DNA of 64,000 bases, from positions 1-64,000 of the forward strand of contig NZ_FMHI01000008.1 in NCBI RefSeq assembly GCF_900090145.1, written 5' to 3'. Source of the stretch: Streptomyces sp. WMMB 322 (GTDB lineage Bacteria > Actinomycetota > Actinomycetes > Streptomycetales > Streptomycetaceae). Under the pieces are notes generated by a model that searched no databases, was not told where the DNA came from, and worked only from the letters and a program-made list of their open reading frames with translations. A program made the translations under genes and the position numbers. The number at the start of each line of letters is the position of its first letter. The stretch's first letter is position 1. This document shows, piece after piece, positions 1,388-7,477 of this stretch.

Positions 1388-2497
1388 ATGGAGGGCAGCG
1401 ACGGCTACCGGCGAACACGGTCCGCCACCGCCGTCGCCGCCTGCGGCTACTGGCACCGCCGCGGCATGGAGACCCGTCCCGGCCAGGTCGTCGCCGCCCC
1501 CGGGGCCGAACTTCTGCTCCTCGCGGTGCTGGCCGCCACGGGCCCCGGCACCGTCCTGACGCCGAGGCCCTGCGAGACCTGGTACGCACGGCCCGCCCGG
1601 CTGCTCGGCCGTCCCGTGCGCACCGTGCCCGTGCCCGTCGAGTGCGGGGGAGTGCCCGACCCGGTGGCCCTGCGGGAGACGGCCGGCCGTGTGCGGGCCG
1701 AGGAACCCGAACCGCCCCGCGTGCTGGTGCTGTCCGTGGCGGACGACTGCACCGGCACCGCCGTGCCCCCCGAACTGCTGCACGAGGTGGTCGAAGCCGC
1801 GGGTGACGAGCGGCTGCTGGTCGTCAGCGACGAGACGTGGCGCGAGACGGCGCACGCGCCGCACAGCACGGTCGTCGTCAGCCCCGCCGAAATGGTCCAG
1901 GGCGGCCGGGAGACCGACGAGGTCGTCGTGCTCGCGGAACTGGGGGAGACGCTGCTGCCCCACGGCCCGGCCGCCGGGATCGCCCGCTTCCCCGACAGCG
2001 GACGCGGGCAGGGCCTCGCCGAGGCCGTACGAGGGGTGCTCACGTCGCTGCTGACGGGGCCGGCCGGTCCGGACGACACCGCCGTCGCCGACGCTCTCAC
2101 CGAACCCGAGTCGCTGCGGGCACGCCGGGTGAGCACCGCGCGCGCCCACGGCTCGGTCCTCGCCGGACTGCACCGCGTCCTCACCGGGGCCGGAGCGCTG
2201 TGCCGCCCGCCGCGGGTGGGGCGCCACCTCTATGCGGACTTCGAGCCGGTGCGGGCCTCTCTCGAAGCTCACGGCATCCGGGACTCGCCCGGTCTGGAGG
2301 CACAACTGGTGCGGATGTTCGGGCCGTTCGCGTGCGGCGGGCACCGCTTCGGCGACGATCCGAAAGCGCTGCGGGTGCGGCTGGCCGGCGGCCTCGTCGC
2401 AGATCCGGACCTGCCCGCACCGGCATCGGCCGCGGGCGGCCGGGCACTCGAGTCCGTGGAATCGGCCCTTACCGAACTGACGGCCCTGCGGGGGTGA
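1388..2497 (+). CDS. Aminotransferase-fold (PLP fold type I) protein without the catalytic lysine
   Basis: This 369-residue protein has the outline of a class I/II aminotransferase but a degraded active site. LVVSDETWRE (about 145-153) is the counterpart of the usual SDEvY motif, with Trp in place of the PLP-hydrogen-bonding Tyr. The NPxNPTG segment reads VADDCTGTAV. At the position of the Schiff-base lysine (SLSK) it reads ELGE (184-187), and the following GlRiG arginine is replaced (GIARF). LRVRLAGG near the C-terminus may keep the carboxylate-binding arginine. I infer that it cannot do normal transamination and may be a binding or scaffold pseudo-enzyme. Its stop overlaps the start of the next MBL gene (GTGA), so the two are very likely translated together. 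The ATG lies after GGAGGCGTGAGCG. Confidence 0.7.
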   Translation: MEGSDGYRRTRSATAVAACGYWHRRGMETRPGQVVAAPGAELLLLAVLAATGPGTVLTPRPCETWYARPARLLGRPVRTVPVPVECGGVPDPVALRETAGRVRAEEPEPPRVLVLSVADDCTGTAVPPELLHEVVEAAGDERLLVVSDETWRETAHAPHSTVVVSPAEMVQGGRETDEVVVLAELGETLLPHGPAAGIARFPDSGRGQGLAEAVRGVLTSLLTGPAGPDDTAVADALTEPESLRARRVSTARAHGSVLAGLHRVLTGAGALCRPPRVGRHLYADFEPVRASLEAHGIRDSPGLEAQLVRMFGPFACGGHRFGDDPKALRVRLAGGLVADPDLPAPASAAGGRALESVESALTELTALRG

Positions 2498-3609
2498 CTG
2501 TGGAAGCGGACCGGACGCTGAGCGAACAGGAGACGGAGACAGCCACGAAGGCGCCCCCGCATGCGCCGTCCGCGCCCGCCCCGCCGGCACCCGCGAAGGC
2601 TCCGGCGCTGGTTCCCGTCGGGGCCAGGAGGCTCTGGCCACGGACCTTCGCCAACCGGCTGACCGCACCGCTTCCCGGCGTGCAGGCCCTGCTCCGCGTC
2701 GCACGAGAAAGGTCGATGCGTCCGGCGCCCGAGACCCTCGGCGACGTCGCGCGGCTTCCGTACGCACCGGGCCCGCTGCCCGCGGCACGGCCCGGGACCC
2801 TCGCCGTGACGTGGGTGGGGCACGCGAGCTGGGTCGTGCGCATCGGCGGTCTGACGGTGCTGACCGACCCGGTGTGGTCACGCCGCATCCTCGGCACGCC
2901 CGCCAGGGTCACGCCTCCCGGCCTGCCGTGGGCGGACCTGCCGCGCGTCGACGCCGTGGTCATCTCGCACAACCACTACGACCACCTCGACGCCCCCACA
3001 CTGCGCCGGCTCCCGCGCCGCACCCACCTGTTCGTCCCCGCGGGGCTGGGCCGCTGGTGCCGCAGAAAGGGCTTCACCAGCGTGACGGAGCTGGACTGGT
3101 GGGAGGCGGCGGAGCTGCCCGCGAGCGACGGCGGCAGGGTCCGCTTCGAGTTCGTCCCCGCGCACCACTGGTCACGCAGGACGCTGACGGACACCTGCCG
3201 TTCCCTCTGGGGCGGCTGGGTGCTCACACGTCTGCGCGCCCGACGGGGGGAGCGCATGGGCAGGCGCGTCTACTTCGCGGGGGACACCGGCTACGGACCC
3301 TGGTTCACGCAGATCGGCCGCCGCTGCCCCGGGATCGACGTGGCGCTGCTCCCCGTCGGGGCGTACGAACCGCGGTGGATGCTCCGCCCGGTGCACACCT
3401 CGCCGGAGGAAGCGGTGCGGGCCTGCGCGGACGTGGGGGCGCGGGCGATGGCGCCGATGCACTACGGCGCGTTCCTGCTCTCGGCGGAGCCGCCGCTGCA
3501 GCCGCTGCAGCGCGTGCGTGCGGCGTGGGCCGCGGAGGGACGGGCGCGCGGCGATCTGTGGGACCTTCCCGTCGGGGCGTCGCGCGCCCTGGAGGAGCAG
3601 GAGGAGTAG
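2494..3609 (+). CDS. MBL-fold metallohydrolase, NAPE-PLD/RomA-like
   Basis: This 371-residue enzyme starts with GTG in a GTGA overlap with the PLP-fold gene; a second in-frame GTG lies at 2500. The first 100 residues are Pro/Ala-rich and then basic. The catalytic domain starts at VTWVGHASWVVRIGG (about 105-119) and has the metal-binding signature SHNHYDHLD (158-166), then FVPAHHWSR, YFAGDTGYGP and MAPMHYGAF. These match the N-acyl-phosphatidylethanolamine phospholipase D-like subgroup of MBL hydrolases (lipid phosphodiesterases, RomA, UlaG relatives). The substrate is unknown; a phospholipid-like phosphodiester is a reasonable guess. Coupling to a PLP-fold pseudo-enzyme is unusual. Confidence 0.8.
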   Translation: MTVEADRTLSEQETETATKAPPHAPSAPAPPAPAKAPALVPVGARRLWPRTFANRLTAPLPGVQALLRVARERSMRPAPETLGDVARLPYAPGPLPAARPGTLAVTWVGHASWVVRIGGLTVLTDPVWSRRILGTPARVTPPGLPWADLPRVDAVVISHNHYDHLDAPTLRRLPRRTHLFVPAGLGRWCRRKGFTSVTELDWWEAAELPASDGGRVRFEFVPAHHWSRRTLTDTCRSLWGGWVLTRLRARRGERMGRRVYFAGDTGYGPWFTQIGRRCPGIDVALLPVGAYEPRWMLRPVHTSPEEAVRACADVGARAMAPMHYGAFLLSAEPPLQPLQRVRAAWAAEGRARGDLWDLPVGASRALEEQEE

Positions 3610-3717: not shown

Positions 3718-4359
3718 TCAACTCGCCCGGAACCGCCGCCACACCGCCGGGGCGACGCTGATGATCACGGTGAGGGCGACCGCCGCCGCGATCCCCTCCC
3801 ACGGTTCGGGGAAGACGGAGCCGCTGAGGAGCCCGATGAGCTGGTAGACCACGGTCCAGGCGAGGCAGGCGGGGAAGTTGCCGTGCACGAATTCGCGCGT
3901 GGGCATCCGCGCGAGCAGACAGGCCACCATGACGGGTATGCGTCCCGCGGGTATCAGCCGGGAGACGATCAGCACGGGCACCTCGTGATCGCGGAGCTTG
4001 TCCTGGGCCTGGCCGAGCCGTTCCGGAGGCGCGTGCCGCCGCAGCCGCTCCAGCCAGCGCGATCCGCTCTGCGAATCCACGCCGCGCCGTCCGAGCGAGT
4101 ACAGGGTGAGATCCCCGAGGAACGCGGCGGCGGCACCCGTCACGAACACCAGCGCGAGGCCGGCAACCGGAACGCTCTGATGGAGGGCCAGGACCGCGGC
4201 GAGGCTGACGAGCGAGCCCGTCGGCACCACCGGCACCAGCGAGCCGAGCAGCACCAGCACGAACAGAGCGGGGTAGGTGACGGCCTGCTCCGCGGACTCC
4301 CCGGGTACGACGGTGCCCCCTGCGGAACCCGCCCCCGCGAGTATGTGCGGAAAGGACAT
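3718..4359 (-). CDS. DedA/VTT-domain integral membrane protein
   Basis: A 213-residue membrane protein with hydrophobic segments at about 29-50 (LFVLVLLGSLVPVVPTGSLV), 60-80, 150-175 and 185-205. GDLTLYSLGRR and VSRLIPAGRIPVMVACLLAR correspond to the conserved G-x-Y-x-GR and FxPgxR elements of the DedA family. Members of this family act in lipid flipping and membrane homeostasis. The ATG overlaps the stop of the upstream MBL gene by one base (TGATG), implying translational coupling. The proline-for-glycine pattern (IPAGRIP) is slightly divergent from textbook DedA. The transported substrate is not known. Confidence 0.8.
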   Translation of the reverse strand: MSFPHILAGAGSAGGTVVPGESAEQAVTYPALFVLVLLGSLVPVVPTGSLVSLAAVLALHQSVPVAGLALVFVTGAAAAFLGDLTLYSLGRRGVDSQSGSRWLERLRRHAPPERLGQAQDKLRDHEVPVLIVSRLIPAGRIPVMVACLLARMPTREFVHGNFPACLAWTVVYQLIGLLSGSVFPEPWEGIAAAVALTVIISVAPAVWRRFRAS

Positions 4360-5132
4360 CAGGCCGACTCCAGCGTCATGCTCTCACCGTGCCCGAGCCG
4401 GTGGACCGTGACGCCGGGTGCCAGCATGCCCGCCTTGCGTACGAACTCGTCGCCGGGCGCGTGGAATTCGTGCGGCCGCACCGCGTCCATGCCGATCGGC
4501 CAGTACGTGCCGTAGTGCACCGGCACCGCCGTGCGCGGGCGCAGACGCACCAGGGCCTCGGCGGCACGCCCGGCGTCCAGGTGCTCCGGGCCCAGCCGGG
4601 GGCCCCAGCCGCCGACGGGCAGCAGCGCCACGTCGACGGTGCCGACCGACCGGGCCATGCCGTCGAAGAGGCCGGTGTCGCCGGCGAAGTACGTGCGGGC
4701 GGCTCCCTCCACCACGTATCCGAGCGCGGGCGCGCGGTGCGGCCCGTACGGCAGGCGGCGCCCGTCGTGCGCAGCCGGGACCGCGCGCACCGTCACATCC
4801 CGCACGGCGACGCGTTCCCCGGGCCCCACCTCCTCCAGGCGCAGCACGGACGCCAGCCTTCGCAGCCGCGGCACGGCGCGAAGGGCCCCGCGGGGCACGA
4901 CGACGCGTGTGCCGGGCGTCAGCAGCGCCAGTGAGCCGAGGTGCAGATGGTCGGCGTGGAGATGTGAGACGAGCACCACGTCGGCGTGGGCGGCGGACCG
5001 CGGCGGCAGACTGCCGCGCCGTCTGCGCAGATGGGCCATGCGCCGCACCAGCAGCGGATCGGTGAGAACCGTCACCCCGGAGTCCCGCACCGTGGCGGTG
5101 GCGTGCCCCCACCATGTGACTTCCACCGGCAC
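4359..5132 (-). CDS. MBL-fold hydrolase, UlaG-like
   Basis: A compact 257-residue enzyme. VTWWGHATATVRDSGVTVLT opens the domain, VSHLHADHLHLG is the metal-binding HxHxDH motif, and AHDGR, YFAGDTGLF and VPVHYGTYWPIG follow as the remaining metal ligands. The start is chosen at GTG 5132 because GAGGAGG lies a few bases upstream and the conserved domain begins at the fourth residue; an upstream reading-frame extension is rich in Arg/Pro and looks non-coding. It is the first gene of a two-gene operon with the DedA protein. Co-occurrence with a membrane lipid-transport-type protein suggests a lipid-related phosphodiesterase, but the substrate is not determined. Confidence 0.82.
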   Translation of the reverse strand: MPVEVTWWGHATATVRDSGVTVLTDPLLVRRMAHLRRRRGSLPPRSAAHADVVLVSHLHADHLHLGSLALLTPGTRVVVPRGALRAVPRLRRLASVLRLEEVGPGERVAVRDVTVRAVPAAHDGRRLPYGPHRAPALGYVVEGAARTYFAGDTGLFDGMARSVGTVDVALLPVGGWGPRLGPEHLDAGRAAEALVRLRPRTAVPVHYGTYWPIGMDAVRPHEFHAPGDEFVRKAGMLAPGVTVHRLGHGESMTLESA

Positions 5133-5311
5133 CTGTGTTCCTCCTCGTTGCTGGCCGCGTACTCCGAGCCTATGCGCCGGCGCACAGGGACGGGTCGGGC
5201 GCTGTGTCACGAGCCGGGCGCAACGTGGAGAATCGGAGAATATCCCGCGCATCGGGTGGGTTTCTCGTGTCTGTGGATGTGCGAGCGGAGCCGGGAGAGT
5301 TGGGAGGCGGT

Positions 5312-7477
5312 ATGCGGGTGCGGATCTTTCCGCCCGCCCTGCTGGGGGGAACCCCTTGGCGCTGGCGGTCCTCCGGGGCCGCCGTGCTGCGGGTGCTGGC
5401 CGTGTGGCTGGTGAGCACTCTGACGCTGCTGGCGCTCGCCGGCATCCTGCCCGATTTCCGGCTGCAGTCACCCGGCGGCGACAGCGCCACGTTCATCGCC
5501 ACGACCGCCGCCATAGGAGCCGGGGTCTTCGGCCTGCTCTCCGTGCTGGTGTGGCCGGTGCTGGTGCGGGCCCTGCTGCTGGTGCCGGCCCTCGTCCTGG
5601 GCACGCTCGTCTTCTTCCTCAACGGCTCACTGCTGTGGCTCGCGCTCTCCCTCGTCCCGTACGGACGCGGCTCGGCCGAGCCGGGCACCGCGGTGGTCGT
5701 GGCCGCGGTGATGTCCGCCGCCTCCTCGGCCACCGGCACGGCCCTGGCCGTGCGCGACGACGGTGCCTACCGCCGCCGTCTGGCCCGCCTCGCCGGGCGC
5801 AGGCGCCGCCGGGAGGGCCTGGGCCCGGCGCCGCGCACACCCGGCACCGTCTTCCTGCAACTCGACGGCGTCGGACACGACTTGCTGCGCGAAGCCGTGA
5901 GCGGACCGCCGAGCGGGCCCCCGCTGATGCCGGCCGTCGCCGAGATGTACGCCTGCACTCACCGCCTGACGCGCTGGCGCACCGACTGGCCGTCCCAGAC
6001 CGGGGCCAGCCAGCTCGGCATCCTCCACGGCACCAACAAGGACGTGCCCGCCTTCCGCTGGTACGAGAAGGACTCCGGGGAGGTGCTGGTCAGCAACCGC
6101 CCGTCCGGAGCCGCCGAACTCCAGCGCCGCGCCGTCGAGGAGACCGGCGACCGCGGCCTGCTCGCCCTCGACGGCGCCAGCCGCGGCAACCTCTTCAGCG
6201 GCGGCGCCGGCCAGGTCGCGCTGGTGGTCTCGGTGGCCGCCCGCCGCGGCCGTGAGAACCGGTCCCGCGCGGGCTACTTCGCGTACTTCTCCGACCCGGC
6301 CAACGCCACCCGCACCGCCGTGTCCTTCGTCGCCGAGGTGGTGCGGGAGCTCGTCCAGGCGACGCGGTCGCGGCTGCGCGGCGACCGGCCGCGGGTGCCG
6401 CGGGGCGGCCTGTACCCGCTCATCCGGGCGTTCGCCACGGTCGTCCAGCGCGACGTGGTGGTCGCCGCCGTGCTCGGTGACGTCTTCAGCGGACGCACCG
6501 CCGTCTTCGCCGATCTGGTGGGCTACGACGAGGTCGCCCACCACTCCGGGCCGCGCGGCGGCGACGCCCGGCAGGTGCTGCGCCGGCTGGACAGGTCCGT
6601 GGCACTGATCGCCAAGGCGGCGCGCCGCGCGCCGCGCCCGTACCGCATCGTGCTGCTCTCCGACCACGGGCAGAGCGCCGGGGAGACCTTCCGTGCGACC
6701 TACGGCCTCACCCTGGAGGACCTCGTACGGGCGGGCTGCGGGCTGCCCGTCTCCCGCCGCGTGGGGCGTACACCCAGCGGGGCGGAGGCGCGCGCCGCCG
6801 CGCGCGCCGCGCTGCACAGACCGGAGGACGGGGCGCAGGACGAGGAGCGCAAACCGTCCAGGAACGAGGGCCCGGTGGTGCTGGCCTCCGGCAACCTGGG
6901 GCTCGTCTCCTTCCCCGACGTGCCCGGACGGATGTCGAGGGAGCAGGTGGACAAGCGGCACCCGGCGCTGCTGCGTACGCTCGCCGACCATCCCGGCATC
7001 GGCTTCCTGCTGGTGCACAGCGACCGGCACGGCCCGGTCGTGCTCGGCGGCGGCGGAGCCGAACACCGCCTGGAGACCGGTGAGATCACCGGCGGCGCGG
7101 ACCCGCTGGCCCCGTTCGGGCCGGGCGCCGCGGAGGCCGTGCGGCGCAGTGCGGGGTTCCGCAACGTGCCCGACATCGTGATCAATTCGGTGGTCGATCC
7201 GGGCACCGGCGCCGTCCACGCCTTCGAGCAGCAGATCGGCTCGCACGGCGGCCTCGGAGGGGAGCAGAACGAGGCGTTCCTGCTCTGGCCGCGCGAGCTG
7301 TCCGCGCCGACGGATGGAGAGGAACTGGCCGGTGCGGAGAGGGTCCACCTCGTCCTGCGCCGCTGGCTGAACGAGGCCGCGGGCCCCCCGGTGCCGGCGA
7401 CGCGCCCAGGGGGCGCGATCGAGGAGACCGGCCGGGAACTCCCGCACTCCCGCCCGCCGGCGGCCCGCCCCGCCTGA
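5312..7477 (+). CDS. Alkaline-phosphatase-superfamily enzyme with N-terminal holin-like membrane domain
   Basis: The 721-residue protein starts at an ATG preceded by GGGAGGCGG. Residues about 20-150 hold four hydrophobic segments resembling the 4TMS holin-like domain (AVLRVLAVWLVSTLTLLALA, VFGLLSVLVWPVLVRALLLV and others). From about 185 a phosphatase/phosphodiesterase domain follows: TVFLQLDGVGHDLL (metal Asp), WPSQTGASQLGILHG (nucleophile region), FADLVGYDEVAHHSG (Asp/His metal ligands) and VLLSDHGQSAG (Asp-His). This is the arrangement of AP-superfamily phosphodiesterases. The enzyme domain is probably outside the membrane and may act on lipid- or wall-linked phosphates. It is often labelled phage holin because of its N-terminus, but nothing phage-like surrounds it. 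It converges with the desaturase gene. Confidence 0.8.
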   Translation: MRVRIFPPALLGGTPWRWRSSGAAVLRVLAVWLVSTLTLLALAGILPDFRLQSPGGDSATFIATTAAIGAGVFGLLSVLVWPVLVRALLLVPALVLGTLVFFLNGSLLWLALSLVPYGRGSAEPGTAVVVAAVMSAASSATGTALAVRDDGAYRRRLARLAGRRRRREGLGPAPRTPGTVFLQLDGVGHDLLREAVSGPPSGPPLMPAVAEMYACTHRLTRWRTDWPSQTGASQLGILHGTNKDVPAFRWYEKDSGEVLVSNRPSGAAELQRRAVEETGDRGLLALDGASRGNLFSGGAGQVALVVSVAARRGRENRSRAGYFAYFSDPANATRTAVSFVAEVVRELVQATRSRLRGDRPRVPRGGLYPLIRAFATVVQRDVVVAAVLGDVFSGRTAVFADLVGYDEVAHHSGPRGGDARQVLRRLDRSVALIAKAARRAPRPYRIVLLSDHGQSAGETFRATYGLTLEDLVRAGCGLPVSRRVGRTPSGAEARAAARAALHRPEDGAQDEERKPSRNEGPVVLASGNLGLVSFPDVPGRMSREQVDKRHPALLRTLADHPGIGFLLVHSDRHGPVVLGGGGAEHRLETGEITGGADPLAPFGPGAAEAVRRSAGFRNVPDIVINSVVDPGTGAVHAFEQQIGSHGGLGGEQNEAFLLWPRELSAPTDGEELAGAERVHLVLRRWLNEAAGPPVPATRPGGAIEETGRELPHSRPPAARPA

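Follow-up and report, generated by a model that had tools for sequence, protein, structure and literature searches.

Organization of the locus

The window, meaning the whole stretch of 64,000 nucleotides that was analysed, carries a gene coding a protein with the fold of class I aminotransferases that lacks the catalytic lysine and is termed here the pseudoenzyme. Its frame ends with a TGA codon (2495–2497) and its only Pfam match is Aminotran_1_2 (4.9e-6). The stop codon overlaps the start of MBL1, a gene for a metallo-beta-lactamase-fold hydrolase, and both are followed by a set of genes whose synteny is maintained (Table 1).

Table 1. Features of the pseudoenzyme/MBL1 locus (window coordinates)
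Feature	Coordinates	Strand	Basis
Class I aminotransferase-fold pseudoenzyme, 369 aa	1388..2497	+	Pfam Aminotran_1_2; AlphaFold/VIA; residue table; genus conservation
Degenerate Schiff-base segment around VVVLAELGETLLPHGPAAGIARFP	1914..2000	+	Alignments with lysine-bearing sisters and T. thermophilus aspartate aminotransferase
GTGA stop/start overlap of pseudoenzyme and MBL1, 4 nt	2494..2497	+	Mostly ATGA in relatives
MBL1, NAPE-PLD-like metallo-beta-lactamase-fold hydrolase, 371 aa from GTG	2494..3609	+	Lactamase_B_2 (1.8e-44); 4QN9 (2.3e-57)
DedA/VTT-family membrane protein	3718..4359	-	Pfam PF09335 (1.1e-16); synteny
MBL2, second and more distant MBL-fold hydrolase, putative start	4359..5171	-	Pfam PF12706 (3.6e-34); synteny
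Holin-like membrane domain fused to type I phosphodiesterase, putative start	5312..7477	+	Pfam PF04020, PF01663; synteny

The conserved gene order has the pseudoenzyme and MBL1 in forward orientation, DedA and MBL2 in reverse and the holin-like phosphodiesterase forward again; the wider conserved block often includes genes for OsmC, CBS and sigma factor proteins. The region 3718–7477 is kept alongside the pair across Streptomyces and suggests an envelope-lipid locus. The DedA family includes undecaprenyl-phosphate flippases (PMC12893004), and the DedA neighbour hints at such a setting. The space between MBL2 and the phosphodiesterase gene holds a conserved ORF of ~100 aa that matches no Pfam family (L062:11966-12271), with a counterpart at the same place in most of the loci L031–L137.

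Ahead of the pair the window has the final part of a SigB-type sigma factor gene at the contig start (6–377) and a gene for a GAF-domain protein (636–1238). Genes like these two are found upstream of the pair in many relatives. The SigB-type promoter pattern GTTT-N14-17-GGGnA occurs in none of the 114 upstream regions and a link to the stress regulon is thus not claimed. Loosely similar upstream motifs picked out by eye were inconsistent (4/114) and were set aside, as was a location of the S. coelicolor orthologue near SCO0666-0680, a guess that had no support in the literature.

An aminotransferase fold devoid of its PLP-binding residues

Residues are numbered (K258, R266, N194, Y225, D222, R386, etc.) as in pig aspartate aminotransferase. 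The original prediction reported a protein with ELGE where the Schiff-base lysine is expected, Trp in the SDEvY position and loss of the GlRiG arginine. All three features are borne out by comparison with lysine-bearing homologues of about 40% identity from Streptomyces and other Actinomycetia (the sisters hereafter). The sequence AELGETLLP occupies the lysine segment of the window protein, which reads VVVLAELGETLLP versus TVVTTGLTKNLALGGWR in the sisters. Glutamate stands at the K258 position and alanine at the R266 position, the arginine after the lysine site being absent, and SDETW is found instead of SDEIY. Further changes are N194 to Asp, W140 to Glu and the GSK loop to GAE, while the amino-terminal segment bearing Tyr70 is missing. 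All that is kept of the PLP site is the ring Asp and the Arg that binds the carboxylate.

These replacements are a family trait. None of 114 orthologues has Lys at position 258, which is occupied by Gly (110), Ala (3) or, in the window protein, Glu. Position 266 is Pro in 113 sequences and Ala in the remaining one, position 194 is Asp in 114/114 and position 225 is Trp in 112/114. Asp222 and the carboxylate-binding Arg386 are invariant (114/114). The residues that would contact the phosphate and ring of PLP (Ser107, Asn194, Tyr225, Arg266 and Tyr70) are not kept in the orthologue alignment, the Tyr70 position drifting with an entropy at the 99th percentile. When the family profile is aligned to T. 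thermophilus aspartate aminotransferase, the lysine column likewise pairs with Gly and the next arginine with Pro. A rescue lysine elsewhere in the chain was also looked for. Lysine is totally absent from 50 of the 114 orthologues and occurs once in 57, and only at position 398, near the carboxyl terminus, does its frequency exceed 3% (48%). A substitute lysine is excluded for the family since 50 members have no lysine at all. At the level of sequence, the loss of Tyr70 and of the Lys, Arg, Asn, Tyr, Trp and Ser of the site speaks against PLP-dependent activity and supports the reading of the protein as a PLP-fold pseudoenzyme.

Structure prediction agrees with this assignment. The AlphaFold2 model of the window protein, obtained with a 50-row alignment including orthologues, has a pLDDT of 83.8 and a pTM of 0.85 (88.6 and 0.87 for a typical orthologue of 415 aa). 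Superposition on solved class I aminotransferases (Foldseek, VIA-align) gives Z about 32 and an rmsd of 2.4–4 Å over about 313–330 residues, almost the whole chain, and the predicted models feature both the large and the small domains of fold type I. A search with the family profile recovers T. thermophilus aspartate aminotransferase at E 3.6e-17. The window protein is thus, by its predicted fold, a class I aminotransferase. The claim that overall fold length is kept needs correction: an amino-terminal arm of ~45 residues (GLPVLPEL...), present in other orthologues, is missing from the window protein and from its relatives in the same clade (L147, L148, L150, L151, L159, L163). This clade also evolves faster than the rest of the family.

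Origin, distribution and selection

The pseudoenzymes form one clade that is sister to lysine-bearing actinobacterial aminotransferases. A single change separates the two groups in the maximum-likelihood tree (support 100/100), and the comparison of their profiles yields 39% identity over 395 columns (E 1e-85). All 26 sisters keep K258, R266, N194, Y225, W140, Tyr70 and the Ser, with single exceptions at D222 and R386. In loci L051 and L052 (about 6.4–15 kb) the products of genes near the sister gene, judged by eye from their sequences, resemble a dehydrogenase of the Leu/Glu type, an AMP-ligase and a fumarylacetoacetase, which may make up an amino-acid pathway.

The pseudoenzyme has been seen only in Streptomyces and close genera and is nearly universal there. 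Among the 276 genomes of the genus within a sample of the order, 272 have a match at E up to 1e-15; for about 250 of these 272 the match is below 1e-120, a score attained by no lysine-bearing sequence. Two further genera of the same family also match. There was no match in 3 sampled genomes from other genera of this family or in 13 genomes from other families, and the loci examined from outside the family have lysine-bearing forms only. Genomes G079 and G285 carry a lysine-bearing paralogue and no pseudoenzyme.

The gene is under purifying selection and retained genus-wide. Pairwise dN/dS, estimated by a simple counting method with no codon-bias correction, has a median of 0.29 and is always below 0.57. 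The family has 89 near-invariant columns, among them D154, D155, S182–T185, R187, H191, H310, Y312, H349, R350 and R361, and the replaced pocket positions are themselves fixed. As judged from the alignment, the residues named probably fall in segments that line the cleft of active aminotransferases. A few finished genomes have a disrupted frame (L153/L167 in G233, L146/L166 in G151 and L048 in G005), owing either to decay or to errors in the sequencing of high-GC DNA.

Coupling to a NAPE-PLD-like hydrolase

MBL1 had been recognized as a NAPE-PLD-like gene whose start overlaps the pseudoenzyme stop, and both points are confirmed. Its match to human NAPE-PLD (4QN9) extends over 279 residues (phmmer, E 2.3e-57), the next solved structure scoring 1.9e-10. 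The metal-ligand motifs SHNHYDHLD, AHHW, FAGDTG and PMHYG are intact, and the ligands (HxHxDH plus further His, Asp and His) are kept in 94/94 orthologues. NAPE-PLD is a di-zinc enzyme (PMC4819959). MBL1 may be, as its homology suggests, a lipid phosphodiesterase, although this homology does not establish its substrate.

The survey of gene neighbourhoods proposed along with the original prediction reveals a conserved pairing. MBL1 lies downstream on the same strand in 102 of the 104 loci with enough sequence, at an estimated distance of -64 to 413 nt, and in 94 of the 114 orthologues its frame opens with an ATG or GTG that overlaps the pseudoenzyme stop. Given the lysine loss in 114/114 sequences and the pair in 102/104 loci, the observation is not due to chance. 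No MBL1 is found beside the sister genes in loci with enough flanking sequence.

The dependence between the two genes appears to run in one direction. MBL1 occurs without the pseudoenzyme at the same locus in G079, G285 and G271 and elsewhere in the genome in G152, so the pseudoenzyme is dispensable in some Streptomyces. Two losses of MBL1 were seen. In G005 the pseudoenzyme frame is broken, which could be a sequencing or assembly error. In L098 the near-invariant YW at residues 58–59 of the pseudoenzyme is replaced by HG. These few cases suggest a one-way dependence of the pseudoenzyme on MBL1.

Proposed function and alternatives

The reading favoured here, to which we give about an even chance, is that the pseudoenzyme is a PLP-free aminotransferase fold, kept by selection as an accessory or regulatory partner of the co-translated MBL1. 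A class I aminotransferase would have given up PLP binding and catalysis in a single event, close to or at the root of the Streptomyces lineage, the PLP-free fold being then retained for another job. Sequence and prediction show the fold, the missing cofactor residues, their single origin, the purifying selection and the gene coupling. Pseudoenzyme and MBL1 would be translated from one message through stop/start coupling, and the former would most likely serve the latter as a non-catalytic accessory protein. Its old cleft, with the invariant Asp222 and Arg386 and the new invariant residues, may sense or present a carboxylate-bearing ligand and tune the activity or location of MBL1, whose own substrate may be of phospholipid type. 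The one-way pattern of loss, though it comes from two cases, suits such an accessory role. Regulation of this kind could involve a physical complex; note that the operon pairing is evidence of co-expression and not of contact. A more specific scheme, in which the cleft, reshaped about the invariant, carboxylate-binding Arg, senses amino acids or keto acids and exerts allosteric control over a NAPE-PLD-type lipid phosphodiesterase throughout the genus, and so connects nitrogen status to membrane lipid signalling, is rather improbable.

The old cleft could instead have acquired a new, PLP-free catalytic activity, the two proteins being successive enzymes of one pathway. The near-invariant polar residues listed above, which seem to lie in cleft-lining segments, supply candidate catalytic groups (the Asp-Asp, Asp-Glu-Thr-Trp-Arg-x3-His and His-Arg motifs). 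They would, however, equally mark ligand-binding or interface sites, the window clade tolerates Gly at D155 and variable residues at K258 and R266, and MBL1 persists without the pseudoenzyme in some genomes. This possibility is considered unlikely, if a serious one.

Pseudoenzyme and MBL1 may also have independent functions and be neighbours for operon convenience only, within a stress- or envelope-related block. The conservation of the wider block (DedA, MBL2 and the phosphodiesterase, often with OsmC, CBS and a sigma factor) and the occurrence of MBL1 alone are in line with this view, which is nevertheless quite unlikely in face of the pairing in 102 of 104 loci, of codons that mostly overlap and of the pseudoenzyme damage that accompanies both observed losses of MBL1.

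Still less probable is that PLP or PMP is bound non-covalently by a cofactor carrier or a lysine-independent enzyme. Asp222 contacts the pyridine nitrogen of PLP, and its invariance speaks for this idea; some fold type I enzymes function with His replacing Lys. In the pseudoenzymes, however, the lysine site holds Gly, Ala, Glu or Val and never His, and nothing is left of the Ser and Arg of the phosphate cup, of Tyr70, of the Trp that stacks on the ring, or of Asn194 and Tyr225. Finally, a decaying pseudogene without function, to which the broken frames in G005, G151 and G233 and the fast-evolving, armless window clade might point, is rejected as hardly credible, the gene being intact across most of the genus with a median dN/dS of 0.29 and 89 near-invariant columns.

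Relation to known systems

No description of the family was found in the main texts of the open papers searched on Streptomyces, which covered lysine-less aminotransferases, NAPE-PLD and signature proteins of the genus. A gene that is near-universal in one of the best-studied bacterial genera codes for a protein unable to form the internal aldimine, which automated annotation would most likely call an aminotransferase because of its sole Pfam match. If the favoured role as a partner of MBL1 is true, it would be a clean case for how an aminotransferase turns into a partner or regulator of an unrelated hydrolase. The pair is also a starting point for work on bacterial NAPE-PLD-like enzymes.

The pseudoenzyme shares with class I aminotransferases (T. 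thermophilus 1GC3/1BJW and Arabidopsis prephenate aminotransferase 5WMH) the whole-chain fold, as predicted, together with Asp222 at the ring and the carboxylate-binding Arg386. It differs from them by the absence of the catalytic Lys, the phosphate Arg and Ser, Asn194, Tyr225, Trp140 and Tyr70. The lysine-bearing actinobacterial sisters (L051, L052, L160 and others), which often coexist with pseudoenzymes in one genus, show the opposite combination: nearly all PLP residues are retained and, in the flanked loci, there is no MBL1 neighbour. MBL1 has the metal ligands of human NAPE-PLD in aligned positions and is distinguished from it by its bacterial origin and by an amino-terminal extension of its own; their likeness is one of sequence. 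The nearest precedent for the pseudoenzyme is the SPT1/LCB1 subunit of serine palmitoyltransferase, a lysine-less fold type I protein that is a required partner of the active subunit (PMC6148460). The partner of LCB1 is LCB2, an active paralogue of LCB1 itself, whereas the Streptomyces pseudoenzyme is paired with an unrelated metallo-hydrolase.
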